From positions 1-22,641 of the IMG/VR virus record IMGVR_UViG_3300030333_006208: a stretch of 22,641 bases of DNA; one strand, written 5' to 3'. The stretch comes from a virus. Position 1 is the stretch's first letter. The number at the start of each line of letters is the position of its first letter. A program made the position numbers and the translations under genes. This document shows, one piece after another, positions 70-21,054 of this stretch. The notes below the pieces were generated by a model, which had not been told where the DNA came from, did no database searches, and saw only the letters and a program-made list of their open reading frames with translations.

Positions 70-339
70 TTATTCAAAATAATCTGGATCAACTGGAATT
101 GTGAAGGTAAATCCGTCAAAAAATTCACATTGGCAGCCGTCATCATCATAAGCAATGAAGTCGCCTTGCATAATAACACACACCATCTCACAGCGTCCAA
201 CTTTCTTTCCGATTTCAATTCCGTCCTTGTGAACCTTGAGTGCGGCATAGGTGCCTACCGCTGAAAGTCCTGCAATGACCAGCCCTCGCTTCCAATATCT
301 TTTGCCAAAATCTAATACTTTTGTCCATAACGTTTTCAT
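70..339 (-). CDS. Small single-span membrane protein with four cysteines
   Basis: 89 residues. A basic N-terminus (KTLWTKVLDFGKRYWKR) is followed by one likely membrane segment (about 19-36, GLVIAGLSAVGTYAALKV). The C-terminal part has cysteines at 50, 54, 69 and 71 (CxxxC and CxC) and is acidic, ending in DPDYFE. With the positive residues before the span, the C-terminal part may face the periplasm and form disulfides, or it may hold a metal on the cytoplasmic side. AGGA lies seven bases before the ATG, nine bases after the FtsZ-like stop, so it belongs to the same transcript. No family is recognised; as the last gene of the run it could anchor the FtsZ-like protein, but that is speculation. 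Confidence 0.74.
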   Translation of the reverse strand: MKTLWTKVLDFGKRYWKRGLVIAGLSAVGTYAALKVHKDGIEIGKKVGRCEMVCVIMQGDFIAYDDDGCQCEFFDGFTFTIPVDPDYFE

Positions 340-348
340 AATAATTTC

Positions 349-1185
349 CTAATTGTTTGTTTTTTCAGTATTTACTACCAAATAACCATAGTTTTCGTCA
401 TACGAAGTAGAATAAACCTGAAATCCGGCGCTAACGTCTTTGCCAACATTTTTATTAATATTGTCTGTTAATCTTCGCAGCAATTTTCCGTCTGTTTCTA
501 AAACTTTTGAGTTGATAGCATAATAATAACTCTTTTCCCGAATGTTGTCAAGGGAAAAAAATAAATTTTCTTCACCCTTGTCAATGTCTAATATTCCGAA
601 TGTAGAAATGCGTGTTGTTTCGCTTGTATCAAATGGCGTTGAATGAATCGGGTCTTGATGATTATAAACATTAACCATGTGAATCGTAGAAACAATTAAT
701 TCATTCAACTTATCATAATAACCAACGATTGGAACGTCTCCCAAAATGTTTTCAACCTTTTTATTGTCAACAAGAAACATGCGGCTAAATACTCCAGACC
801 GTGTATATTCTTGTAAAACATTTCTTACTAATCGCTCTTGATAAATATTAGTTTTTGCAAGAAACTCTAAATCAGGCTTGATATACAGAACACTAACATT
901 TTTACCTTGAAGGCTTTTGAGAATCTGCAACGCCGCGCCTGAAACAATGCCTGAACCAGACACGACAAATAAAACATCATCGGTTGTATCTTTAAAAAAG
1001 GTTTTCATTGTGCGAATGTTTTTTTCATATTCCTCTGGAGCGTCTTGTCGCTGGAGGAGGAAGCAGTTCTTACTTTTACCATCAATTCCCTCAGAATCAA
1101 TTTTATAGGTTTTGTATTGGGGGTAGGCGCAAAATTTGTCAGCGATTGCACAGCCTGCTCTGCCCAGTCCGACTATTGTATCCAC
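349..1185 (-). CDS. Divergent FtsZ/tubulin-like GTPase (putative)
   Basis: 278 residues, GTG start with GGAGG five bases upstream inside the polymerase gene. The elements of an FtsZ/tubulin nucleotide domain appear in order: IVGLGRAGCAIADKF (4-18, first glycine loop), KIDSEG (28-33, second loop), DVLFVVSGSGIVSGAALQIL (70-89, in place of the GGGTGTG signature), NVSVLYIKPDLEFL (96-109, fifth loop), RMFLVDNKKVENIL (135-148, like the xxIxNDKLL of FtsZ) and a helix with NELIVSTIHMVNVY (161-174). A short second domain starts at TRISTFGI (191-198). The signature loop is degenerate, and the catalytic NxDxxE loop is not seen, so GTP hydrolysis is doubtful. The fold assignment comes from reading motifs, not from a search. 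Other Rossmann-type nucleotide binders remain possible. A role in positioning phage DNA or replication sites is inference. Confidence 0.6.
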   Translation of the reverse strand: MDTIVGLGRAGCAIADKFCAYPQYKTYKIDSEGIDGKSKNCFLLQRQDAPEEYEKNIRTMKTFFKDTTDDVLFVVSGSGIVSGAALQILKSLQGKNVSVLYIKPDLEFLAKTNIYQERLVRNVLQEYTRSGVFSRMFLVDNKKVENILGDVPIVGYYDKLNELIVSTIHMVNVYNHQDPIHSTPFDTSETTRISTFGILDIDKGEENLFFSLDNIREKSYYYAINSKVLETDGKLLRRLTDNINKNVGKDVSAGFQVYSTSYDENYGYLVVNTEKTNN

Positions 1186-2375
1186 TCAATCCTCCGCATG
1201 TCGCCGTAAGACTTACCAGCACTTAAATTAACTTGAAACTTTCCGAGGGGTGTATCAGCAAACAAATCCAACAACTCCCCTATCAATTGTCGATCACTGT
1301 CATCAAAGTCAATAACAATACTATCATGAAGTGTGAACGAAATAAAGGAGTTTTTGCCCTTAAGTTTATCAGCAATTTTAAAAGCTCTGGATAACACGAT
1401 ATCGCTTGTCGTGCTCTGTATTAAATAGTTTAGTGAATGGTGTTTGTCCGCTTGGATTACACGATTCATAGGAGTAACAACAACTTGTCCGTTCCAATAT
1501 TTTCTTAATATGCCTTTACGATCATAATACTTTGTAGGCAATTCATCTTTTGATTGTGGATTGTAGAGCCATGAGAAGATTCTCTTCTTTGCTTGGTCAC
1601 GAGTTCCGACGCCTTTAAACACATTCTTTAAATTCCAAATATGTAGATCTTCCGTAGGCTGTTCTTTGCCAGCAAGACCGAGAAGAGAACGAAGCTCTGC
1701 TGCATTATAATCAAGTTCTACAAAATAATCATTTGTCGGCTTAATGATTGAGCGATATTCGCCATCAAGTGTCAAAATAGGAAAATATCCCTTGTGTGTT
1801 GTCATGCGCCCAGTTTTTGTACCATACATATTATATCTAATGTATGGCTTTATGTATTTCGACTTCTTTATAAAGTTGCGAACCTTAAGTTGGTGGCTCT
1901 CACGGGCGATCTCTGAGTAGTCAATATTTAATTTTCTTTGTCCGATGTCGTATGTAAACTCAGACAACCTCCTCATAAAATCATAGTTCGCAGGCTTCTT
2001 CTGTGTTTTGATAATGTGGTCTGTGATCTTGTTTTTGACCTCGCAGTATTCCAACAGAAATCTCTCAGGCACAAGATCAAAAAAGCAATGAATATCCATG
2101 CTTATTTTGGCAGTTGAAAACGACTTATAGAAGGCGCTCATGCGGGCGTTAATCGTGTCCCAGCGGTTCCTAAGAAAAGACGGGCAAACTTCATTTAATG
2201 ATTTGCCTTCAGCGAATATAGAGGCAATGAGAGTGTCTTTTTGCGAAAAAACAGGGTTATAGCTCCAGGTCGCAGTTACAGCGTCGAAGTCAAATTCTTC
2301 ACAATCGTAGATTAATTTGCCGTCATTATAAATGCCGACACAATGTTTTTTATCGTCTAATGTTTGGACTAACAA
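1173..2375 (-). CDS. Stand-alone family A DNA polymerase domain
   Basis: 400 residues, covering only the polymerase part of a Pol I-type enzyme. Motifs in order: GTKTGRMTT (185-193, the TxxGR loop); motif A LDYNAAELR (221-229), with the metal-binding Asp222 and the Glu227 and Arg229 that match E. coli Glu710 and Arg712; motif B R259, K263, F267 and Y271 with the exact RxxxKxxxFxxxY spacing; N316 and Q320 (LNYLIQ); and motif C LHDS (349-352). In motif C the usual Glu after His-Asp is Ser. The essential Asp and Lys residues are kept, so it is probably active. No 3'-5' exonuclease domain precedes it. A TGA two codons upstream forces initiation at TTG 2375 (no in-frame ATG before codon 79), with a weak AAGAG upstream. 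It overlaps the next gene by 13 bases. Confidence 0.91.
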   Translation of the reverse strand: MLVQTLDDKKHCVGIYNDGKLIYDCEEFDFDAVTATWSYNPVFSQKDTLIASIFAEGKSLNEVCPSFLRNRWDTINARMSAFYKSFSTAKISMDIHCFFDLVPERFLLEYCEVKNKITDHIIKTQKKPANYDFMRRLSEFTYDIGQRKLNIDYSEIARESHQLKVRNFIKKSKYIKPYIRYNMYGTKTGRMTTHKGYFPILTLDGEYRSIIKPTNDYFVELDYNAAELRSLLGLAGKEQPTEDLHIWNLKNVFKGVGTRDQAKKRIFSWLYNPQSKDELPTKYYDRKGILRKYWNGQVVVTPMNRVIQADKHHSLNYLIQSTTSDIVLSRAFKIADKLKGKNSFISFTLHDSIVIDFDDSDRQLIGELLDLFADTPLGKFQVNLSAGKSYGDMRRIEWIQ

Positions 2376-9209: not shown

Positions 9210-11381
9210 TTATTCGACCCCTACTTGTGGAGATGAGCCTGGAGCACCCATGTGACTATTTACCAATCTACCGAACTCTCGTTTATTAACTTTCATGACA
9301 GTATCGCCCTTGCGGCTAACGCTGGCGTTTATCGCATCTAACTTTACACCTAGGTTTGCCAACTCTCTGATTATAGCCTGATCTCCCTTGCTAGCACCAA
9401 GTCCGACGTTTGATAACAATGCCGAGCCAAATGACTTAAATCCGTTCTCAAAATTAGAATTATTAACCACAGCGGACCTTGGCGGCGGAATAACAAGTTC
9501 TGGACCTTCTTCTCCCACGACATGTGGTCCTTTCATTGTAGAATTAGTTCCGTCTGCAAGAAATCTTTTGCCCATGGAGTAAGCATCTCCTGCAAGCATG
9601 GCTATATTAAGCCCTGGGACGAAACGAGCGCCGAGTTTGGCGGCTGCCATTAGTCCACCCTTTTTTTTAAGCCAACCGCCGAGGCCACCAAGTAAACCTT
9701 TTTTTGATATTGTATCTCTCATCGAACCAAGAGCACCACCTCCTGGGACTTTTTTGCCGAGTTTTTCTAATACCGATCCCACACCATCTTTTACTTTATC
9801 GCCAATTTCTTCGGCAAGATCGTCCTTGGCATCAACATCTTTAGTGATCATTGGATTAGATGGGGTGCCAAGCTTTTCCCCAATTCCCAATAAACCTCTA
9901 ATGCCTTTAGCAGCAATTCCGCCTGCTTTGGCAATGCCAACTGCACCAGCAATGGTTCCCAGCGTACCACCAATTTTTGGAATAAACTCTCCAGCTTTTC
10001 TACTGAATTCAAGAAATTTTGCCATAAAACTCATCATGTTTTTTACAAAGGTAATAACGGGTGTTAGGGCGACTGTTAATTCAGCAGCTAATGCCAATAA
10101 TTCGTCTTTAAGTGCCATAGCTGCTTTGAGATTGTCCTCTCTTTCTTTTGCCTGCTTCTTTTGTTCTTCGGTTAATTGCTCGGCATTCATCAAGTTTCTA
10201 AGTTCTACAGTTGACATACCCGCTGCGTTTGCTATAGCTTGTTTTTGGAACACAGTCAAAGAATCAAAATCTCCAACGGCACCCCCAAGCTGTTCTCTAA
10301 ATGTGTCGATAAACGCTTGCGGTCCTTCCATTTGTGCCTCAAGCAGCGACATTGTGTCGAACATCTGTGTTCCAAGAACGGCATTAAGGCTTGAAGCAGC
10401 GCGACCCGCATCTTCAAATGTCATAAATTTATCAGCAATGCCAGTTAACTGATCTATTGATAGCCCAGTTTCTATCGCTTGCTCAGATAGTCTTTTAAAT
10501 GCAGGACCGATTTGCCTTTCTGATAAGTTGGCAAGTTGTGGTAATGCTTTATTTAAATCGCTAACTGCCTGACCAATGGAAATGCCGAGTTCTTGCGCTA
10601 ATGTTTCTGCTCCTTGAGTCAATTCCATTGCTGCGGTTTCTGTCATCCCAAAAGACTTAGTGGCTGTCTGCATAACACCCACAACATCACCACTTGCCGC
10701 TCCAAGTCGTTGTAGTTCAGATACTTCATCTGCTATAGCTGTCTGAGTGTCTGCCGCCATGAGTCCAAATCCAGACAAGCCTCCGATTAAATCAGCCATT
10801 GCTGCGGCACTGTCAGCAGCGGAAATACCAAATTTTCTATTTTCTTTTTCTAATTCAATAATCTGGCTATTATATCGTCCGCCTGCACCAGTTGCTTTAT
10901 TGAAAGATGCTGTTGCTTGGTCATTTGCTAAAGCAAGACCAATCGACCCTTCGGCAAGTTTTTGTGCTACGGAAACGCCAATATTGAAACTTGTTAGTGT
11001 TTCATCAACCGTTTTTTTGGCTTGCCCAAATGCTTCACCTACGTTACCAGCTTCGGAAGTCAGCTTTACAAAGGAGCCGATAAGTCCGTCACTCGAATCA
11101 GTGACACCTGTAAGTGTTTTAATCTTATGTTTAAGGGCTCTATCGAATTTTTCAAATGGAGCTATTGCATCATTTGCTGCGTCGGAAAGGTCTTTTAATC
11201 GTTTTTTAAACGCTTCAAGTGATGGACCAGAGTCGGCAGCAGATCCAGTAAGAGCCTTAATGTTGCTCTCTAACCTATCAAACAAGCCAATAAAATCGTC
11301 AGCCGCACTGGTATCTGCAAACTCTTTTTTTAATTGTTGAATTTGATCAACAAGTTCTTGTTGTGCTTTTGATAGAGCCAC
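9210..11381 (-). CDS. Tail tape measure protein
   Basis: 723 residues, starting with GTG; GGGAG lies about 11 bases upstream. The N-terminal two thirds are long, Ala/Leu-rich helices with many short repeats, as expected for the rod that sets tail length inside the tube. A hydrophobic segment rich in Gly and Ala follows (roughly 430-510: LALAAELTVALTPVITFV and later GTLGTIAGAVGIAKAGGIAA). Near residue 607 lies FLADGTNS, then GPHVVGEEGPELVIPP, a widespread C-terminal signature of tape measure proteins. At about 1.5 angstrom per residue of helix the tail would be near 110 nm; that is inference. The stop is followed by one base and then the next ATG, so translation is coupled. Confidence 0.92.
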   Translation of the reverse strand: MALSKAQQELVDQIQQLKKEFADTSAADDFIGLFDRLESNIKALTGSAADSGPSLEAFKKRLKDLSDAANDAIAPFEKFDRALKHKIKTLTGVTDSSDGLIGSFVKLTSEAGNVGEAFGQAKKTVDETLTSFNIGVSVAQKLAEGSIGLALANDQATASFNKATGAGGRYNSQIIELEKENRKFGISAADSAAAMADLIGGLSGFGLMAADTQTAIADEVSELQRLGAASGDVVGVMQTATKSFGMTETAAMELTQGAETLAQELGISIGQAVSDLNKALPQLANLSERQIGPAFKRLSEQAIETGLSIDQLTGIADKFMTFEDAGRAASSLNAVLGTQMFDTMSLLEAQMEGPQAFIDTFREQLGGAVGDFDSLTVFQKQAIANAAGMSTVELRNLMNAEQLTEEQKKQAKEREDNLKAAMALKDELLALAAELTVALTPVITFVKNMMSFMAKFLEFSRKAGEFIPKIGGTLGTIAGAVGIAKAGGIAAKGIRGLLGIGEKLGTPSNPMITKDVDAKDDLAEEIGDKVKDGVGSVLEKLGKKVPGGGALGSMRDTISKKGLLGGLGGWLKKKGGLMAAAKLGARFVPGLNIAMLAGDAYSMGKRFLADGTNSTMKGPHVVGEEGPELVIPPPRSAVVNNSNFENGFKSFGSALLSNVGLGASKGDQAIIRELANLGVKLDAINASVSRKGDTVMKVNKREFGRLVNSHMGAPGSSPQVGVE

Positions 11382-11396
11382 GTTTAATTATTCTCC

Positions 11397-11729
11397 CTAC
11401 TTAAATGGCCACTTGATCCCCGTATCTCTTTCAAAAGATTTAATCGCACGATCAAGCTGTGCCTTTGTTCTAAGTGTCTCAGGCTTGTCTAAACCATAGC
11501 GCTTCATTGCTTTGAGATATCTTGCCTCATTACCAAGAGCGCTCTTAAACGAGTCCACTTGCTTTCTTGTGCCAGAGATCCTAACGGGCACAGAGCGTCC
11601 ACCAAACATGCCACCGAGGATTGTCTCAATCGCACCACCCATCATTGCAAGCCAGCTTTCACTAAGCAAGTCTGTTTCGCTGGGGTTTAAATTAATTTCA
11701 ATTGGCACCAAATCATTTGGTTCGTTCAT
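11397..11729 (-). CDS. Conserved small phage protein, function unknown
   Basis: 110 residues from the ATG with GGAGG eight bases upstream; a GTG seven codons earlier (11750) overlaps the region before the ribosome site and is rejected. The N-terminal part is acidic, followed by a hydrophobic Gly/Met stretch (AMMGGAIETILGGMFGG, about 29-45) that could be an amphipathic or membrane-associated helix. The C-terminal part is basic and helical, with RISGTRKQVDSFKSALGNEA, then YLKAMKRYGLDKP, and it ends in FERDTGIKWPFK. I recognise this ending from hypothetical proteins in other myoviruses but know no function. Being next to the tape measure suggests a tail assembly role. Confidence 0.8.
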   Translation of the reverse strand: MNEPNDLVPIEINLNPSETDLLSESWLAMMGGAIETILGGMFGGRSVPVRISGTRKQVDSFKSALGNEARYLKAMKRYGLDKPETLRTKAQLDRAIKSFERDTGIKWPFK

Positions 11730-11760
11730 TGTATAGACCTCCGAATGCACTTATCTCTTA

Positions 11761-11768
11761 TAAATAGT
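11761..11768 (-). promoter_or_regulatory. ACTATTTA motif upstream of the small conserved gene
   Basis: Exact minus-strand ACTATTTA followed by TAAGAG, 32 nt upstream of the chosen ATG (11729) and immediately behind the terminator. On the plus strand the site reads TATAAATA (11759-11766), identical to the T4 late box, so its orientation is formally ambiguous. Confidence 0.5.
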
Positions 11769-11770
11769 TT

Positions 11771-11804
11771 CACATAAAAAGAAACGGGCATTAATTGCCC
11801 GTTT
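11771..11804. terminator. Bidirectional hairpin terminator before the tape-measure cluster
   Basis: A perfect nine-pair inverted repeat (AAACGGGCA, 11782-11790; TGCCCGTTT, 11796-11804) has a five-base loop. On the minus strand it is followed by CTTTTTATG; on the plus strand by TTATTTATT. It lies right after the gp51-like stop and before a new ACTATTTA motif, so on the minus strand it should end the tube/gp26-like message. Confidence 0.86.
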
Positions 11805-11966
11805 TTATTTATTGGATTTTTTCATCTGTTTTTCTTGTTCTTCAAAGTGTTGAACCAATCTATTAACAAACCAATCTCTTAGCTTAATAGGTAAATTGTA
11901 GGCTTCGATAAAACTCCAGCCTCCATGCATCTTTAAATAGAAAAACTGTTCATACACATATTGCAT
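11805..11966 (-). CDS. Small gp51-like protein, possibly made as a +1 frameshift extension
   Basis: Too short for usual gene finders. From the ATG at 11966 it encodes 53 residues: YVYEQFFYLKMHGGWSFIEA followed by YNLPIKLRDWFVNRLVQHF and a charged, Lys-rich tail. The pattern (aromatic helix, GGWS, AYNLP, RxWF..RL) is one I associate with small baseplate hub assembly proteins next to gp26-like genes in T4-type phages. The same frame is open upstream across the 3' end of the gp26-like gene (GLNDGY precedes the Met), so it may be produced either by +1 slippage or by separate initiation. The ATG has only a weak GATGG before it, which favours frameshifting or coupling. The stop lies one base before the terminator stem, so this frame ends the transcript. 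Confidence 0.62.
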   Translation of the reverse strand: MQYVYEQFFYLKMHGGWSFIEAYNLPIKLRDWFVNRLVQHFEEQEKQMKKSNK

Positions 11967-11973
11967 GTATCCA

Positions 11974-12852
11974 TCATTGAGGCCAAAAAAATTCCGAAGT
12001 AAACGGCACCTCCGTTTCAGTTACCGCACCGCAAGACGAACATTCAGTTTGTTGAGACATATCAATGTTAGGGGTGACAACTTGCATACAAGCTCGAAGA
12101 AAGCGAGCGTCTTGTGCAGGCATGTTATCGATAAAACTGGAAATTTCTGCACCAGAAGTAACATCATTAACGGAAACAACAAGCTTTTTTAATAAATTAG
12201 TTGATGTAGCATCTGGAAGTTTGTGCTTCTTTAGCTTATCTGCCAAATTTTGTAACTCTGTCTCGTCTCTTCCAGTTAACAAACGGAATTCAACAAGATA
12301 TTTTGTCACTGGTAATTCTGCAAGAAAGGTTCCCCTTTCAGTAAGTGATACCTGGCTATCTTCTCCTGGCTTGAGACCGTGATTAATCTCCAATTTTGAT
12401 AGATCAAATTCGTTTCGAACTGTCTCACCGCAAGCGGGGCACTGTAGCTCGACAGCATAGTCCTGACCATATCCTGAAACTCTTGCGGATATTAACATAG
12501 CATTTCTATCACCCACTAAAAGTTCGTTAACATCGATATTTTGATCAACGATTAGGTTTTCCAACAACCTATCAACCGCCAAACCTTTTCTAAGTAATGC
12601 GGGTGAAGTAAGAATGTCTTCATCCCTTGCTGTCATATACCTCATTTCAACAACTTCCTTATCACGAAGCGGGTGCTCGTTGTGATAATATTGTCCACCT
12701 GAAGGCAGTTCAACAAACTCTGTTGGAGTAACATATGAAAGACTTGCTGATCTGGCTACGGGCGCTTGTTCAGTTGCCGGACCTGCATCAACAGGGTTGG
12801 TTGAAGCAGCAGGACTCATTGCAGCAGTTGTCCGCTGTTCGTTTCTAGACAT
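11974..12852 (-). CDS. Zinc-binding baseplate/tail assembly protein (gp26-like)
   Basis: 292 residues from the preferred ATG, which has GAGG five bases upstream; a GTG two codons earlier touches the ribosome site and is unlikely. The first 40 residues are Ala/Pro-rich and probably disordered. Then comes TPTEFVELPSGGQYY, and EMRYMTARDEDILTSPALLR with RLLENLIVD, the pattern of the T4 gp26-type baseplate family. Two CxxC pairs (CPAC near 138 and CSSC near 271) probably form one four-cysteine zinc site. The frame ends in SEFFWPQ. A second conserved reading frame continues in the +1 frame exactly at the TTTTTTT before the stop (see 11805-11966). The position, between tail tube and tape measure, is where tail assembly chaperones with programmed frameshifts usually lie. 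The biochemical role is inferred. Confidence 0.76.
   Translation of the reverse strand: MSRNEQRTTAAMSPAASTNPVDAGPATEQAPVARSASLSYVTPTEFVELPSGGQYYHNEHPLRDKEVVEMRYMTARDEDILTSPALLRKGLAVDRLLENLIVDQNIDVNELLVGDRNAMLISARVSGYGQDYAVELQCPACGETVRNEFDLSKLEINHGLKPGEDSQVSLTERGTFLAELPVTKYLVEFRLLTGRDETELQNLADKLKKHKLPDATSTNLLKKLVVSVNDVTSGAEISSFIDNMPAQDARFLRACMQVVTPNIDMSQQTECSSCGAVTETEVPFTSEFFWPQ
11985..11991 (-). other. Seven-T run at overlap of two frames: candidate +1 frameshift site
   Basis: In the zero frame the site reads GAA TTT TTT TGG CCT CAA TGA. Skipping one T gives TTT TTT GGC CTC AAT GAT and enters a conserved-looking frame that runs another 59 codons. The fused product would be about 348 residues. 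The TGA stop only three codons later suits a programmed event. A homopolymer sequencing or assembly error would give the same picture. Confidence 0.45.
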
Positions 12853-12876
12853 ATACACCTCTTTTTTTATTGTCTA

Positions 12877-13552: not shown

Positions 13553-16408
13553 TTAATCCTCAAAGCCCGCACCAGAATTTGTAATAACAAAATCGAGAGC
13601 AATGAATTCGATAGATCTGGCAGGCTTCAAGAAGATCTTGGCATACAGCACATTTCTATCGATCAACTCTGGAGTTGTTGTGCTATCATCAAGCACGATT
13701 CTATAATCGGTAAGACCCAATCGTGCCTGCACCCCGCGCAAGAACTCTTCCGCCTTACTAGTAAAGCGGTTCCAAGTTGCTTGAACGTTTTGATCAAATA
13801 ATGTTGTAGCTGCAATTCTGGAAATTTCTTTCTTAACAAAAATCATTAAGCGTCGAACATTAATTCTATCAAGTGCCGATGGCGTAACTTGAAGTGTTTT
13901 TTGTCCAAAGATTACAATGCCCTCTGCGGGGAATGTGGCAATTGGATTAATATTTGCCTCATAAAGATCATCGCGGTTTTTAGATGTCAATCGCTCACGC
14001 GCTTGAATCACGGGTAATCCTGCTGACCCTTCGGTAAGACCGCCGCGAGTAAAGCCTGCGGGAGCAAACCAAAGTTCTGAATTTCTTTGTGCGCTTGAGA
14101 AAGTTCCAAGAGCAACAACCGAAGGCGGAACAAACACTAAGCTATCGGAAATACTGTCACGAATCTGTACCCATGGGTAATACGCACATCCATAGCTTGT
14201 ATTAAGCCTGCGATTGGTTAAATTAGTAATTGCGGTCGAGACCGAGCCTCGGTTACTTTGAACCGATTGTGTGTTCTCTGTTTGAGCACGATATCCCGAA
14301 TCAATGTCGATAACGGCGAGTGCATCACCACGAGCCTCACATGTCTCAATCATATGACTTGTTAGTGCCGCGTTGTATATACCAGGCGCTGCCAATAAGT
14401 TGTATTCGACCTCTTCTGGGTTTGCCACTGTATCAATGGCACGACGCACACTATAGAAAGCATAGTTTGTTGTATCGGACCCACCATTTATATCAGTGTT
14501 ATTGAACGGCTCTGCTTCTCTAATATCGAGTCCATCAAAGCCACCTTGAAGGGGAACTGTAAATCTATTATATCCCATATCGAGAACTTGCTCATACGTT
14601 CCGCTGCGTGCCGAGAACGAATTACCGGCTGCTCGCGAACCCGAAACATAAACTGCAACTTCGCCTGTTGCTGCAATGTTCGATGAACTTAAATCATCGA
14701 GTGTGAAGATATATGAATATTCTGTTGAGTCTACCACAGTAAAGCCATTGACTGCGTTTGGAAGGACACGAACTAAGTCAAGATAGCTGTCTTCAAAACG
14801 GTTGCTGCCAGCCTGAGTTGTATCGATACCAAAATATGCATCCAGGGGATCTGAAATATTTCCGTCAGAGGCACTTACTCGTAAATTAATCGTAGGATAA
14901 ACCAGAGACCCAGTAAAATCATATGCTTGCCCTGCGCCGATACCAGTGGCTAAAAAGGTTACATTAGCATCATAGGGGAGCCCAATGTCTCCAATACCGT
15001 TAACCCATCTATCTGTGGGCTCTGAGGTTCCAGACTGCCAAGACCAAGTTTTTTGACGGATAGGTCCGTATGAACCAAACGGAAGGAGACGGGGGTTACT
15101 GAGTAGACCTTCTTTAACATCAGGGTCTACTTCAACACGCACAATTGACGAGGCATTGGGATAATCCCCATAAACACGATGTCGTCGTTCCGTATCATCC
15201 CATTCAATAAACTGATCACCAATTACTCTCGCAATGTATCTAGGTGAGTTAGGGTTAAGGTTAAGAGAACTATATCGCTCCAAAACAATTGGGGCGTTAT
15301 CATTATCTCGTGCGTCACGAACTTCAACACCAAAACTTCCAAAAAGATCAAAATCATTTGTTGATTTCTTGATGTCTACAATAGAAATTTTCACTTTCTT
15401 TTGTTCATCTTCTCCCGCATCAAGAGTGTGGAACTTAAACAACTTTTTAGTATGCTGTGTGGCGTCAAAGCCTGAGAAAGCCGATTGATCATGTTGGGAA
15501 AAAATCCATGGAGTTTGTGCAGCCTGAAATCCAAATCGGAAATTGGCTGCATTATAGTTATTGGTACTTTCGTCAAGTCCGAGGATTGCTGCATGAGAAG
15601 AAGTAGCAGCGTATGTTGCTAAATGACGTTCGAATGTTGGACCAAGCCAGTAAGTTTCTTGGTTTGCCGTTCTTGTAATATCTGCATTAACAAGAGTTGG
15701 GTTAGTATTAAAAACTTTTCGAATATACTTTGCACTTGAGCGATCAAAGTTAAATGATGTGCATTTCTGAAGATTGCCGTTGCTATCTTTAATAAGTACT
15801 TTATACTCATTCTCTCCAGCAGACGAATCACCAGCTTTTTTTGCATCCTTAACGAGCACACCCGAACCACTTACAACTGTTGAAGTGCCACGGACGGTGC
15901 CAGAAATTTCAATCGCTCCTTCGTTAAGATACCATATGGCTGCTAAAGCGCCTGTTACTGCTGTTGTTGCGGAGGCAGATGGAAAAACAAAAAGACCATA
16001 AGCACCGCCATTGGTTCCAATGGCGCTTGTGTTTGATGCTGCGGTTTCCCAGCCAGCCTCACCTGCGGCACCATCAGCAACTTGTGAACTTTGAGCACCC
16101 AGGAGACGAACGACTGTCAAAGCACTGCTGTTTCTTAAATAAGCCTGAGCAGCATAGGCGGCATATGTTGGGGCAATATAATTGCCATTTCGCCAGGTGT
16201 CTGAACTATTACCACCTGGGATAGGATTACCAAAAATTCTAACATAATCAGAAAATGAATTGACCTTAACGGGACGCATTGCTGGTCCTCGTTCCGTTCT
16301 ACCAATAACCACTGGTCCGATCTCGTCTGGGATTCGTGGCAATTGTGAATTATCAATTTCATTGATGAAAATGCCTGGTGAAATAAACTTAAAAGATTTA
16401 ACTGACAT
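13553..16408 (-). CDS. 18: Contractile tail sheath protein (T4 gp18-like)
   Basis: 951 residues, much longer than T4 gp18 (659). The N-terminus SPGIFINEIDNSQLPRIPDE followed by IGPVVIGRTERGPA is the classic sheath start, with FSDYVRIFGNPIPGG after it. Near residue 775 lies the family hallmark ELWFAPAGFTRGGL, then EGIVIFGQKTLQ and INVRRLMIFVKKEIS. The C-terminal domain that polymerises the sheath ends with YAKIFLKPARSIEFIALDF. The extra length lies in the middle (roughly 120-680), where sheath proteins carry outward-facing domains that vary between phages. The ribosome site GGAG lies ten bases before the ATG, in a leader similar to those of the tube and neck genes. Identification is very secure; the function of the insertion is unknown. 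Confidence 0.95.
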   Translation of the reverse strand: MSVKSFKFISPGIFINEIDNSQLPRIPDEIGPVVIGRTERGPAMRPVKVNSFSDYVRIFGNPIPGGNSSDTWRNGNYIAPTYAAYAAQAYLRNSSALTVVRLLGAQSSQVADGAAGEAGWETAASNTSAIGTNGGAYGLFVFPSASATTAVTGALAAIWYLNEGAIEISGTVRGTSTVVSGSGVLVKDAKKAGDSSAGENEYKVLIKDSNGNLQKCTSFNFDRSSAKYIRKVFNTNPTLVNADITRTANQETYWLGPTFERHLATYAATSSHAAILGLDESTNNYNAANFRFGFQAAQTPWIFSQHDQSAFSGFDATQHTKKLFKFHTLDAGEDEQKKVKISIVDIKKSTNDFDLFGSFGVEVRDARDNDNAPIVLERYSSLNLNPNSPRYIARVIGDQFIEWDDTERRHRVYGDYPNASSIVRVEVDPDVKEGLLSNPRLLPFGSYGPIRQKTWSWQSGTSEPTDRWVNGIGDIGLPYDANVTFLATGIGAGQAYDFTGSLVYPTINLRVSASDGNISDPLDAYFGIDTTQAGSNRFEDSYLDLVRVLPNAVNGFTVVDSTEYSYIFTLDDLSSSNIAATGEVAVYVSGSRAAGNSFSARSGTYEQVLDMGYNRFTVPLQGGFDGLDIREAEPFNNTDINGGSDTTNYAFYSVRRAIDTVANPEEVEYNLLAAPGIYNAALTSHMIETCEARGDALAVIDIDSGYRAQTENTQSVQSNRGSVSTAITNLTNRRLNTSYGCAYYPWVQIRDSISDSLVFVPPSVVALGTFSSAQRNSELWFAPAGFTRGGLTEGSAGLPVIQARERLTSKNRDDLYEANINPIATFPAEGIVIFGQKTLQVTPSALDRINVRRLMIFVKKEISRIAATTLFDQNVQATWNRFTSKAEEFLRGVQARLGLTDYRIVLDDSTTTPELIDRNVLYAKIFLKPARSIEFIALDFVITNSGAGFED

Positions 16409-19296: not shown

Positions 19297-21054
19297 TCAC
19301 ACAAGGTTAACGACAACAACTAGTCCGTACATGTCTGGACGAACCATCTTCTTACCGTAGCGTGTCATGACTCCCTTGCGGGGCACGAAATCTTCGGTTC
19401 CGAAAATAGTAGGTGTGACCTGTAGTGGAACGTATGGCGCGTACACATAGCCGCTCTCCAAGAAGGATCCACCCTTACGACCGACGAGAACAATGTTCCG
19501 TGGGAAATAAGGATCAACGTAGACATCCCATTTCTTGGAAAGTGCGCCGACCTTGACAGCACCAACGGTGCCGCGATCAGCATCAGCAGTTACGGAAGCA
19601 CGGAATCCAGCGGTGAACTCAAGGACGTTAGCAACTTCAGGTCCGACGACAATGAAGTTAGCTCCGCCGCGAAGAGTCTTGCGGTGAATTTGTGCAGACA
19701 CATCGTTGATTGTCTCAACAAGTGTCTCATACCACTCAGAAACCGTACCAGTGAAGTCAGGAGTTGATGTAGTAGCACCAACCTCTTGACCAGTAAGACG
19801 GTTTACGAATCTGCCTGCATGGCGTGACCAGTAGTAGCGTCCTGCGGTTGCACCTTTAATAAGGTCTTCAAGAATCTCACGATCAATCTCAAGAGCAATT
19901 TGCTCGGAGAGGATTGAAGTAAGTTCCACCTCTGCATCCAAGTTGTGGTATGCGTTGAGGTCTTGACCTAATTCAGGTGTCCACTTAGCTTTTAACTTTT
20001 TAGTCAAAGCGGTGATGCTAACGGAATCGACCTTGATGTCAATTTCTGGAATGAACGTGGCGTCTGAGTTTTCAGTGGCAGTATCTGTTGCCTGCTCAAG
20101 ACCCCAAGTAGGATCACCAACGACTGCGCCGACATTATCGCCGCCGACATTAACGAAGTCATCCTTAATTGCCCATACAAGTGTTTCTGTCGCTCCACAG
20201 AATGAAGAAGACATTTCGTTAGGACGAGCCGATCCGTCAACTGATGCAAACACCAAGAGAATGGTATTTTTAGCATCGGTGCCTGGATCATAAAGACCAC
20301 CGTTCGAGCCAGACCACTGTGCTAAACGACGCACTTGTGCAGCGCCTGCAAGACCTTGAGAAGCAGAAATGCTAATCAAATTATCAAGATTAAGCTGCGA
20401 AAGGTCGGCTGCTGTCACCGAAGCGACGAGACAGTTGGTTGTACCAGAAGTAAAGGCTGGATCATAGCGTACAAGCTTATCACCAACGCCACCAGCGCCC
20501 ACTGTATCCCAGGTGCCACCAAAAGTACCAGAAGTAAGAGCGGTAACTGAAATGACTCCAGATCCTGTTGGAGAAGAATAGCCATTGTTCAATGCATAGA
20601 AAGAGTTCTCTGCATTAAGCCCGCTAAGACTTACACCACCAGTGATTTGTGAACCAACGGCACCACCACCATACAACGAGTTGCCCGAAAGCATTCCTAA
20701 CTTGCCACCAGTCTCATCAGAAACGGTAAAATCAAGGAAGAAAACGAGTCCACTTGGGAGACTCATTGGTTGAACGCTAACGAGATCGTTTGCGATCAAG
20801 CCGCCGAAAACACGACGGACAATTGGAAAAGCAACTGCGGCGAATCCTTGGACATCGCCCGATGCCATTGCGGAAGTTTCACGAAGAAGTTCCTTAGCTT
20901 GGTTCTCCAAAAGGCGAGCCATGCTATTGCGAGTGCGATTATTGTCGAGTCCTTCAAGAAGTCCTGTCTTCTCCCACTTGGAAAGAAGTGCAGCACCCTC
21001 TTGAGAGAGGTCACGATCAACAATGCCCTCAGTTAGTTTATCTAAAACTGACAT
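19297..21054 (-). CDS. 23: Major capsid protein (T4 gp23-like)
   Basis: 585 residues, somewhat longer than T4 gp23 (521). The N-terminal delta region reads LLSKWEKTGLLEGLDN and ARLLENQAKELLRE, matching the gp23 pattern NKW..LLEG..ENQ. After it comes FPIVRRVFGGLIANDLVSVQ followed by PMS.P.GLVF, the typical fold entry of this family. A prohead-protease site of the LxE type is likely after Glu59 (LRE/TSAM), at the position where T4 gp23 is cut (Glu65); LLE at 48-50 is an alternative. The C-terminal part includes FGTEDFVPRKGVMTRYGKK, a gp23-like ending. A Gly/Ser/Thr-rich stretch at about 125-260 is probably a surface insertion. Translation should be strong: AAAGGAGG sits nine bases before the ATG. 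A hairpin terminator follows the gene. The identification is very secure; the cleavage site is inferred. Confidence 0.95.
   Translation of the reverse strand: MSVLDKLTEGIVDRDLSQEGAALLSKWEKTGLLEGLDNNRTRNSMARLLENQAKELLRETSAMASGDVQGFAAVAFPIVRRVFGGLIANDLVSVQPMSLPSGLVFFLDFTVSDETGGKLGMLSGNSLYGGGAVGSQITGGVSLSGLNAENSFYALNNGYSSPTGSGVISVTALTSGTFGGTWDTVGAGGVGDKLVRYDPAFTSGTTNCLVASVTAADLSQLNLDNLISISASQGLAGAAQVRRLAQWSGSNGGLYDPGTDAKNTILLVFASVDGSARPNEMSSSFCGATETLVWAIKDDFVNVGGDNVGAVVGDPTWGLEQATDTATENSDATFIPEIDIKVDSVSITALTKKLKAKWTPELGQDLNAYHNLDAEVELTSILSEQIALEIDREILEDLIKGATAGRYYWSRHAGRFVNRLTGQEVGATTSTPDFTGTVSEWYETLVETINDVSAQIHRKTLRGGANFIVVGPEVANVLEFTAGFRASVTADADRGTVGAVKVGALSKKWDVYVDPYFPRNIVLVGRKGGSFLESGYVYAPYVPLQVTPTIFGTEDFVPRKGVMTRYGKKMVRPDMYGLVVVVNLV

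Follow-up and report, generated by a model that had tools for sequence, protein, structure and literature searches.

Phage tubulins have been described as PhuZ in jumbo phages and as TubZ in a few Bacillus/Clostridium elements. The locus analyzed here raises the question of what role a tubulin presumably unable to hydrolyse GTP may play, as its base pocket is kept and its catalytic loop lost throughout the family, and the gene has a fixed place in a replication operon. With it, the puzzling divPolA1 replication module, published in 2024 (PMC11348598), gains a gene that had gone unrecognised. The main text of that article contains neither 'tubulin' nor 'FtsZ'.

The gene and its setting

The window, meaning the whole stretch of 22,641 nucleotides that was analyzed, represents part of a T4-type phage genome and carries its main genes on the minus strand. 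The gene of interest is an open reading frame of 278 codons, read from a GTG start at 1185. The features of the window relevant to it are as follows.

70..339, minus strand: small membrane protein with one N-terminal transmembrane (TM) segment and conserved Cys residues, accessory, retained on the downstream side of the tubulin gene within the window's subclade
352..1185 (stop codon 349-351), minus strand: tubulin-fold protein of 278 aa with a GTG start, member of a conserved family
1191..1195, minus strand: Shine–Dalgarno-like GGAGG of the tubulin gene, within the polymerase gene (from the junction sequence)
1173..2375, minus strand: divPolA1-type family A DNA polymerase of 400 aa (PF00476 1.2e-8, phrog_17 1.7e-15)
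11974-12858, minus strand: T4 baseplate protein
13553-16408, minus strand: tail sheath
19297-21054, minus strand: Gp23 major capsid protein

The capsid, sheath and baseplate genes bear out the T4-type setting proposed in the initial annotation, and large tail-region genes lie between the baseplate protein gene and the short family A polymerase gene. The closest isolate match of this polymerase is that of phage immuto. RM378, a T4-type isolate found by its capsid match, was considered as a syntenic relative and rejected, as no synteny was seen in the stretch read.

Translation of the tubulin gene by overlap with the polymerase gene, also proposed at the outset, agrees with the junction: 13 nt (1173-1185) are common to both genes, and the GGAGG stands ahead of the GTG inside the polymerase gene, so that translational coupling of the two is well founded. 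In some lineages (L034, L037, L098), divPolA1 and the tubulin gene are separated by an additional 1-2.6 kb; thus, coupling by overlap is common, not universal. As to the membrane protein said to follow, a single-TM protein is indeed encoded at 70-339; it is not a fixed partner, and its distribution is described below with the operon.

A predicted tubulin fold

The AlphaFold2 model of the window protein, built with 30 family sequences as input, reached a pLDDT of 92.7 and a pTM of 0.91. A relative with about 36% identity was modelled at pLDDT 91.7, with the same outcome in Foldseek searches. The best 50 PDB matches listed for each model were all FtsZ or TubZ, with both domains covered by the alignment (E ~1e-12, TM ~0.7). 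TubZ 4ei7 was the best single match (E 1e-12, TMq 0.71), while FtsZ structures mostly gave TMq values of 0.66-0.76. In the viral library (BFVD), the best match was 'FtsZ Cell division GTPase' A0A6J5RW92 of an uncultured Caudovirales phage (E 1e-13, TMq 0.77), and the next fold matches included PhuZ of Noxifer (7e-7) and a 'Tubulin'. Both modelled members thus show the two-domain tubulin fold, comprising a Rossmann-like N-domain, the core helix H7 and a C-terminal domain.

Profile comparison points in the same direction. The hhalign score of the family profile (132 sequences) against a PhuZ profile of nine sequences was 41.0 (E 7e-5), with 100 column shuffles giving 13.6 +/- 1.9 (maximum 19.0). 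Against FtsZ the score was 28.0, and shuffles reach 25.4. Five unrelated phage profiles scored at most 19.1, and reversed profiles about 18. The FtsZ segment ending ISLLDAFGAANDVLK is aligned with the family segment VLQEYTRSGVFSRMFLVDNKKVENILGDVPIVGYYDKLNELIV. Sequence homology to the tubulin/FtsZ superfamily is therefore above chance, and the window protein belongs, by a firm structure prediction, to this structural superfamily. The suspicion of an FtsZ/tubulin-like protein, raised from sequence motifs, has accordingly gained a confident tubulin-fold match over residues 1-200, which extends to the C-terminal domain in two models and is joined by the profile-profile comparison.

The nucleotide pocket and the missing catalytic loop

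The motifs on which the initial annotation relied, namely a glycine loop, a GSGxxSGAA loop and an IxxDN-like strand, are present in FtsZ order (G6-C12, S76-A85 and F137-N141), and profile comparisons place all three in register with FtsZ. Its two reservations, an altered signature loop and a missing NxDxxE loop, hold for the whole family. The parts of the pocket lie as follows, all on the minus strand.

1150..1170, minus strand: T1-like glycine loop, residues 6-12 (GLGRAGC), aligned with T1 of PhuZ and FtsZ
931..960, minus strand: T4-like loop, residues 76-85 (SGSGIVSGAA), where FtsZ has GGGTGTGAA, by hhalign to T4 of FtsZ and PhuZ
751..783, minus strand: S6/T6 strand, residues 135-145, with N141 at the position of the FtsZ IPN asparagine, placed by its register with FtsZ in profile comparisons and in a weak TIGR00065 match
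661..720, minus strand: core helix H7, residues 156-175, with base-pocket residues Y156 and N161, by DSSP of the model
610..660, minus strand: T7/H8 position, residues 176-192, having neither NxDxxD/E nor a helix, from 117 relatives and two models

Conservation was calculated from 117 unique sequences with an effective number of about 79. In the T1 loop, G6, G8 and G11 are found in 100% and A10 in 97% of them, while in the T4-like loop G77 reaches 87% and G79 89%. In place of the T4 signature GGGTG[ST]G (GGGTGTG in FtsZ), the family mostly has [GAS]G[SAG]Gxx[ST][GA]. The third motif reads F137-L-V-D-N141, with N141 conserved in 99%; in H7, N161 is kept in 99%, H169 in 100%, N172 in 97% and Y156 in 93%. 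D30 is likewise conserved (96%), and the far end of H5 bears a second patch of conserved residues, QEYxRS (125-130). The T1 glycines, the T6 asparagine and the H7 asparagine that define a guanine/ribose pocket are thus all in place, in a register taken from profile alignments and with residue roles deduced from the alignment with FtsZ rather than from a structure with bound ligand. Some divergent members change T1 as well (GLGNVGH, GFGQVGR), so perhaps not all of the family binds a nucleotide.

The catalytic face of the protein is different. The catalytic T7 motif NxDxxD/E occurs in 0 of the 117 unique relatives, and neither model has a helix H8 after T7, as H7 (156-175) leads straight into strand 193-200. 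Residues 176-192 have a mean entropy of 2.49 bits, versus 1.77 overall, and only the T2-S3 region is more variable. The active site of an FtsZ or tubulin subunit is completed by T7 of the adjacent one; since this loop is absent here, hydrolysis by the FtsZ/tubulin route is not expected. The conserved base pocket together with the lost T7 loop and H8, as seen in alignments and models, fits a putative nucleotide-binding, non-hydrolysing member.

Extent and conservation of the family

One IMG/VR scan returned 43 close relatives of the window protein, and a profile scan found relatives encoded in at least 587 viral-contig stretches (587 of the first 600 candidates, among the matches listed), diverging to about 30% identity. 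The gene is under strong purifying selection, with a dN/dS of 0.06-0.08. A frame kept in so many stretches, such selection and motifs in the FtsZ register argue that this is not a chance open reading frame. Standard annotation is blind to the group, for which Pfam, PHROG and NCBIfam have no entry: searches of Pfam, PHROGs, NCBIfam and PDB sequences with the window protein gave chance-level matches only. Additionally, three family members used as tblastn queries had 0 matches in 50,697 phage records.

All relatives come from uncultured contigs, and the metagenome identifiers suggest that the phage group may be marine. The sole genome match is in a WOR-3 MAG, CP070664, where a 5-kb piece of such a phage (L117 7697-12736) lies between 100-N gaps in the published 'chromosome' CP070664.1. 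This piece is a mis-binned scaffold and not a prophage; being a phage scrap flanked by such gaps, it gives no host evidence.

The replication operon

The conserved gene order is polymerase, tubulin, (small gene), gp32-like SSB, RecA, 5'-3' exonuclease and, further on, DnaB helicase. Wherever a polymerase locus extends at least 2.5 kb downstream, the tubulin gene is present (147 of 147), and the count is 54 of 54 when only those fetched with the polymerase profile are included, these loci having been fetched by similarity and not being a random sample. It is absent from the immuto-like sister group around Flavobacterium phage immuto (0 of 80 loci), which has the same operon with other small genes in the tubulin slot. 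In the sampled loci of this large, so far uncultured T4-like group, the tubulin-fold gene always lies between the DNA polymerase and DNA-binding protein genes.

The membrane protein behaves otherwise. In 88 of 179 loci the gap between tubulin and SSB genes is shorter than 130 nt and therefore leaves no membrane protein, which rules it out as an obligatory partner; among the loci with a wider gap, the open reading frame in that slot has a predicted TM segment in 59 and is soluble in 30. Present in about a third of the loci, it is an accessory protein. In L034, L094, L111, L225 and others lacking it, the space between tubulin and SSB is often taken by a ~90-aa soluble protein (GTFxKxNGxxRxMxFVK...FNW), so that this slot swaps cargo.

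In divPolA1, the kind to which the polymerase belongs, the palm is intact, the exonuclease dead and the thumb truncated (PMC11348598, Yutin et al. 2024). A cellular-type DNA polymerase III alpha (DnaE-type, PF07733, ~1145 aa) is also encoded in 11 of 12 long tubulin-bearing contigs, e.g., at 156393-159848 of G002 (L127:16393-19848); divPolA1 may thus not be the main replicase. No second tubulin was found by PF00091 in contigs G001-G004. The 185-kb relative G002 (L120-L122, L127, L128) also carries genes for GroEL, ClpP, IMP dehydrogenase and a trypsin-like protease as well as many sugar-modification genes. In L097, a 625-aa open reading frame (10615-12492), named by eye as a DnaK/Hsp70-like chaperone, lies between the exonuclease and helicase genes.

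Proposed role and alternative explanations

The account that we prefer, and to which we would give an even chance, is that of a structural or accessory component of the phage replication site which would bind guanine nucleotide and not hydrolyse it, a function inferred from context. Guanine nucleotide would be bound in the usual pocket of the tubulin-fold protein, and no hydrolysis by the FtsZ/tubulin mechanism would follow, because helix H8 is gone and so is the T7 loop, which would complete the active site of the adjoining subunit. The protein would be made by translational coupling with the short family A polymerase divPolA1, directly ahead of the gp32-like SSB, and may serve as a fixed subunit of the replication site, that is, a nucleotide-stabilised scaffold or static oligomer instead of a treadmilling filament. 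Such an assembly might hold divPolA1, SSB and RecA together or anchor them. A dynamic spindle is unlikely for a fixed core gene that is co-translated with the polymerase and has kept the base pocket while losing the catalytic face. With the GTP-cutting loop absent, the protein probably has another role than building moving filaments.

What the analysis shows is the fold (by prediction), the conserved pocket, the loss of T7 and H8, the fixed gene order and purifying selection, whereas nucleotide binding, the lack of hydrolysis and the physical partnership with replication proteins are inferred. Several points speak against this account: operon position indicates co-expression and not physical partnership; divPolA1 works without the tubulin in the immuto-like sister group; with a polymerase III alpha in the same phages, divPolA1 may not be the main replicase; and T1 is altered in some divergent members. 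The bolder version of the proposal is that a tubulin-fold protein has left the cytoskeleton and now serves a viral replisome as a dedicated subunit that does not hydrolyse GTP, partnering divPolA1 and SSB. This would be the first tubulin relative directly involved in DNA synthesis; we regard it as a tentative idea that may well go too far.

The leading alternative is that the protein mimics FtsZ and so poisons the host's own. It would dock by its nucleotide face under the last FtsZ subunit and, in the absence of T7 and H8, permit no extension, so that it would cap the filament or co-assemble with it and stop division. Such a cap would be expected to look like this, a tubulin fold whose nucleotide face is conserved and whose T7 face is lost. 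Division inhibitors are usually variable accessory genes, however, whereas this gene belongs to the fixed core and stands between polymerase and SSB at every locus sampled, and its divergence to about 30% identity exceeds what would be expected if a mimic had to fit an FtsZ interface that changes slowly. Lambda Kil and T7 Gp0.4 are unrelated small proteins with which phages are reported to attack FtsZ (PMC3961180, PMC13423816). Right in anatomy and wrong in genomic behaviour, the mimic is an unlikely explanation.

Less likely still is a cytomotive filament of the PhuZ/TubZ kind, which would use GTP-driven dynamics to position phage DNA or replication sites. PhuZ is the closest profile match, and TubZ and FtsZ are the closest fold matches, but all 117 relatives lack the T7 NxDxxD/E motif and both models lack H8. 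Moreover, PhuZ and TubZ have a long C-terminal tail, unlike the window protein, which ends soon after S10. An unrelated Rossmann-type nucleotide-binding protein with only a general resemblance to tubulin could have been suspected, as no family library names the protein and single-sequence searches found no match. Yet the best PDB matches listed for both models are all FtsZ or TubZ over both domains, NAD-type Rossmann dehydrogenases appear in the viral library only at E >= 2.7e-3, and there is profile homology to PhuZ, which makes this reading highly improbable. Functions other than those considered here take up the remaining probability.

Comparison with known systems

PhuZ (phiKZ gp39 and relatives of nucleus-forming jumbo phages) shares with the window protein a phage-encoded tubulin fold, gives the best profile match (E 7e-5) and has a T4 loop that is divergent in a similar way. 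The carriers differ, however, being jumbo phages in the case of PhuZ and T4-type phages here, with long contigs of 132-204 kb; moreover, the window family is without T7 and H8, and its gene lies in a replication operon. Orthology was not seen at the tblastn level, where phiKZ PhuZ finds 179 records and three family members find none. Chimallin (phiKZ gp54) had no match in 10 tubulin-bearing records, nor in Vibrio phage Aphrodite1, the intended positive control.

TubZ, the partition tubulin of Bacillus plasmids and phages, is the best single PDB match (4ei7, E 1e-12). The window protein is shorter (278 aa versus a 381-residue chain), lacks the catalytic loop and has divPolA1 and SSB as invariant neighbours, whereas TubZ belongs to a partition operon (tubR, centromere). 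FtsZ resembles it in fold over both domains (TM ~0.7), with T1, T6 and H7 in the same register; unlike FtsZ, the family has no GGGTGTG, NxDxxD or H8, and it is not a host division gene. The FtsZ equivalog profile TIGR00065 of NCBIfam gives 14.5 bits, far below its cut-off of 295.2. A search of the viral contigs for FtsZ with E. coli peptides found nothing, and a GGGTGTG pattern search of them found only two host-like ftsZ genes. The closest viral fold match, A0A6J5RW92, differs in having 452 aa and 18% identity to the window protein.

The divPolA1 phages (PMC11348598) have the same kind of polymerase and the same replication gene order, but their immuto-like members are without the tubulin gene. 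As the defining features of FtsZ, PhuZ and TubZ were each looked for and found wanting, the window protein is none of the three. It represents a third phage-tubulin group beside PhuZ and TubZ, very common and carried by T4-type phages of uncultured viral contigs.
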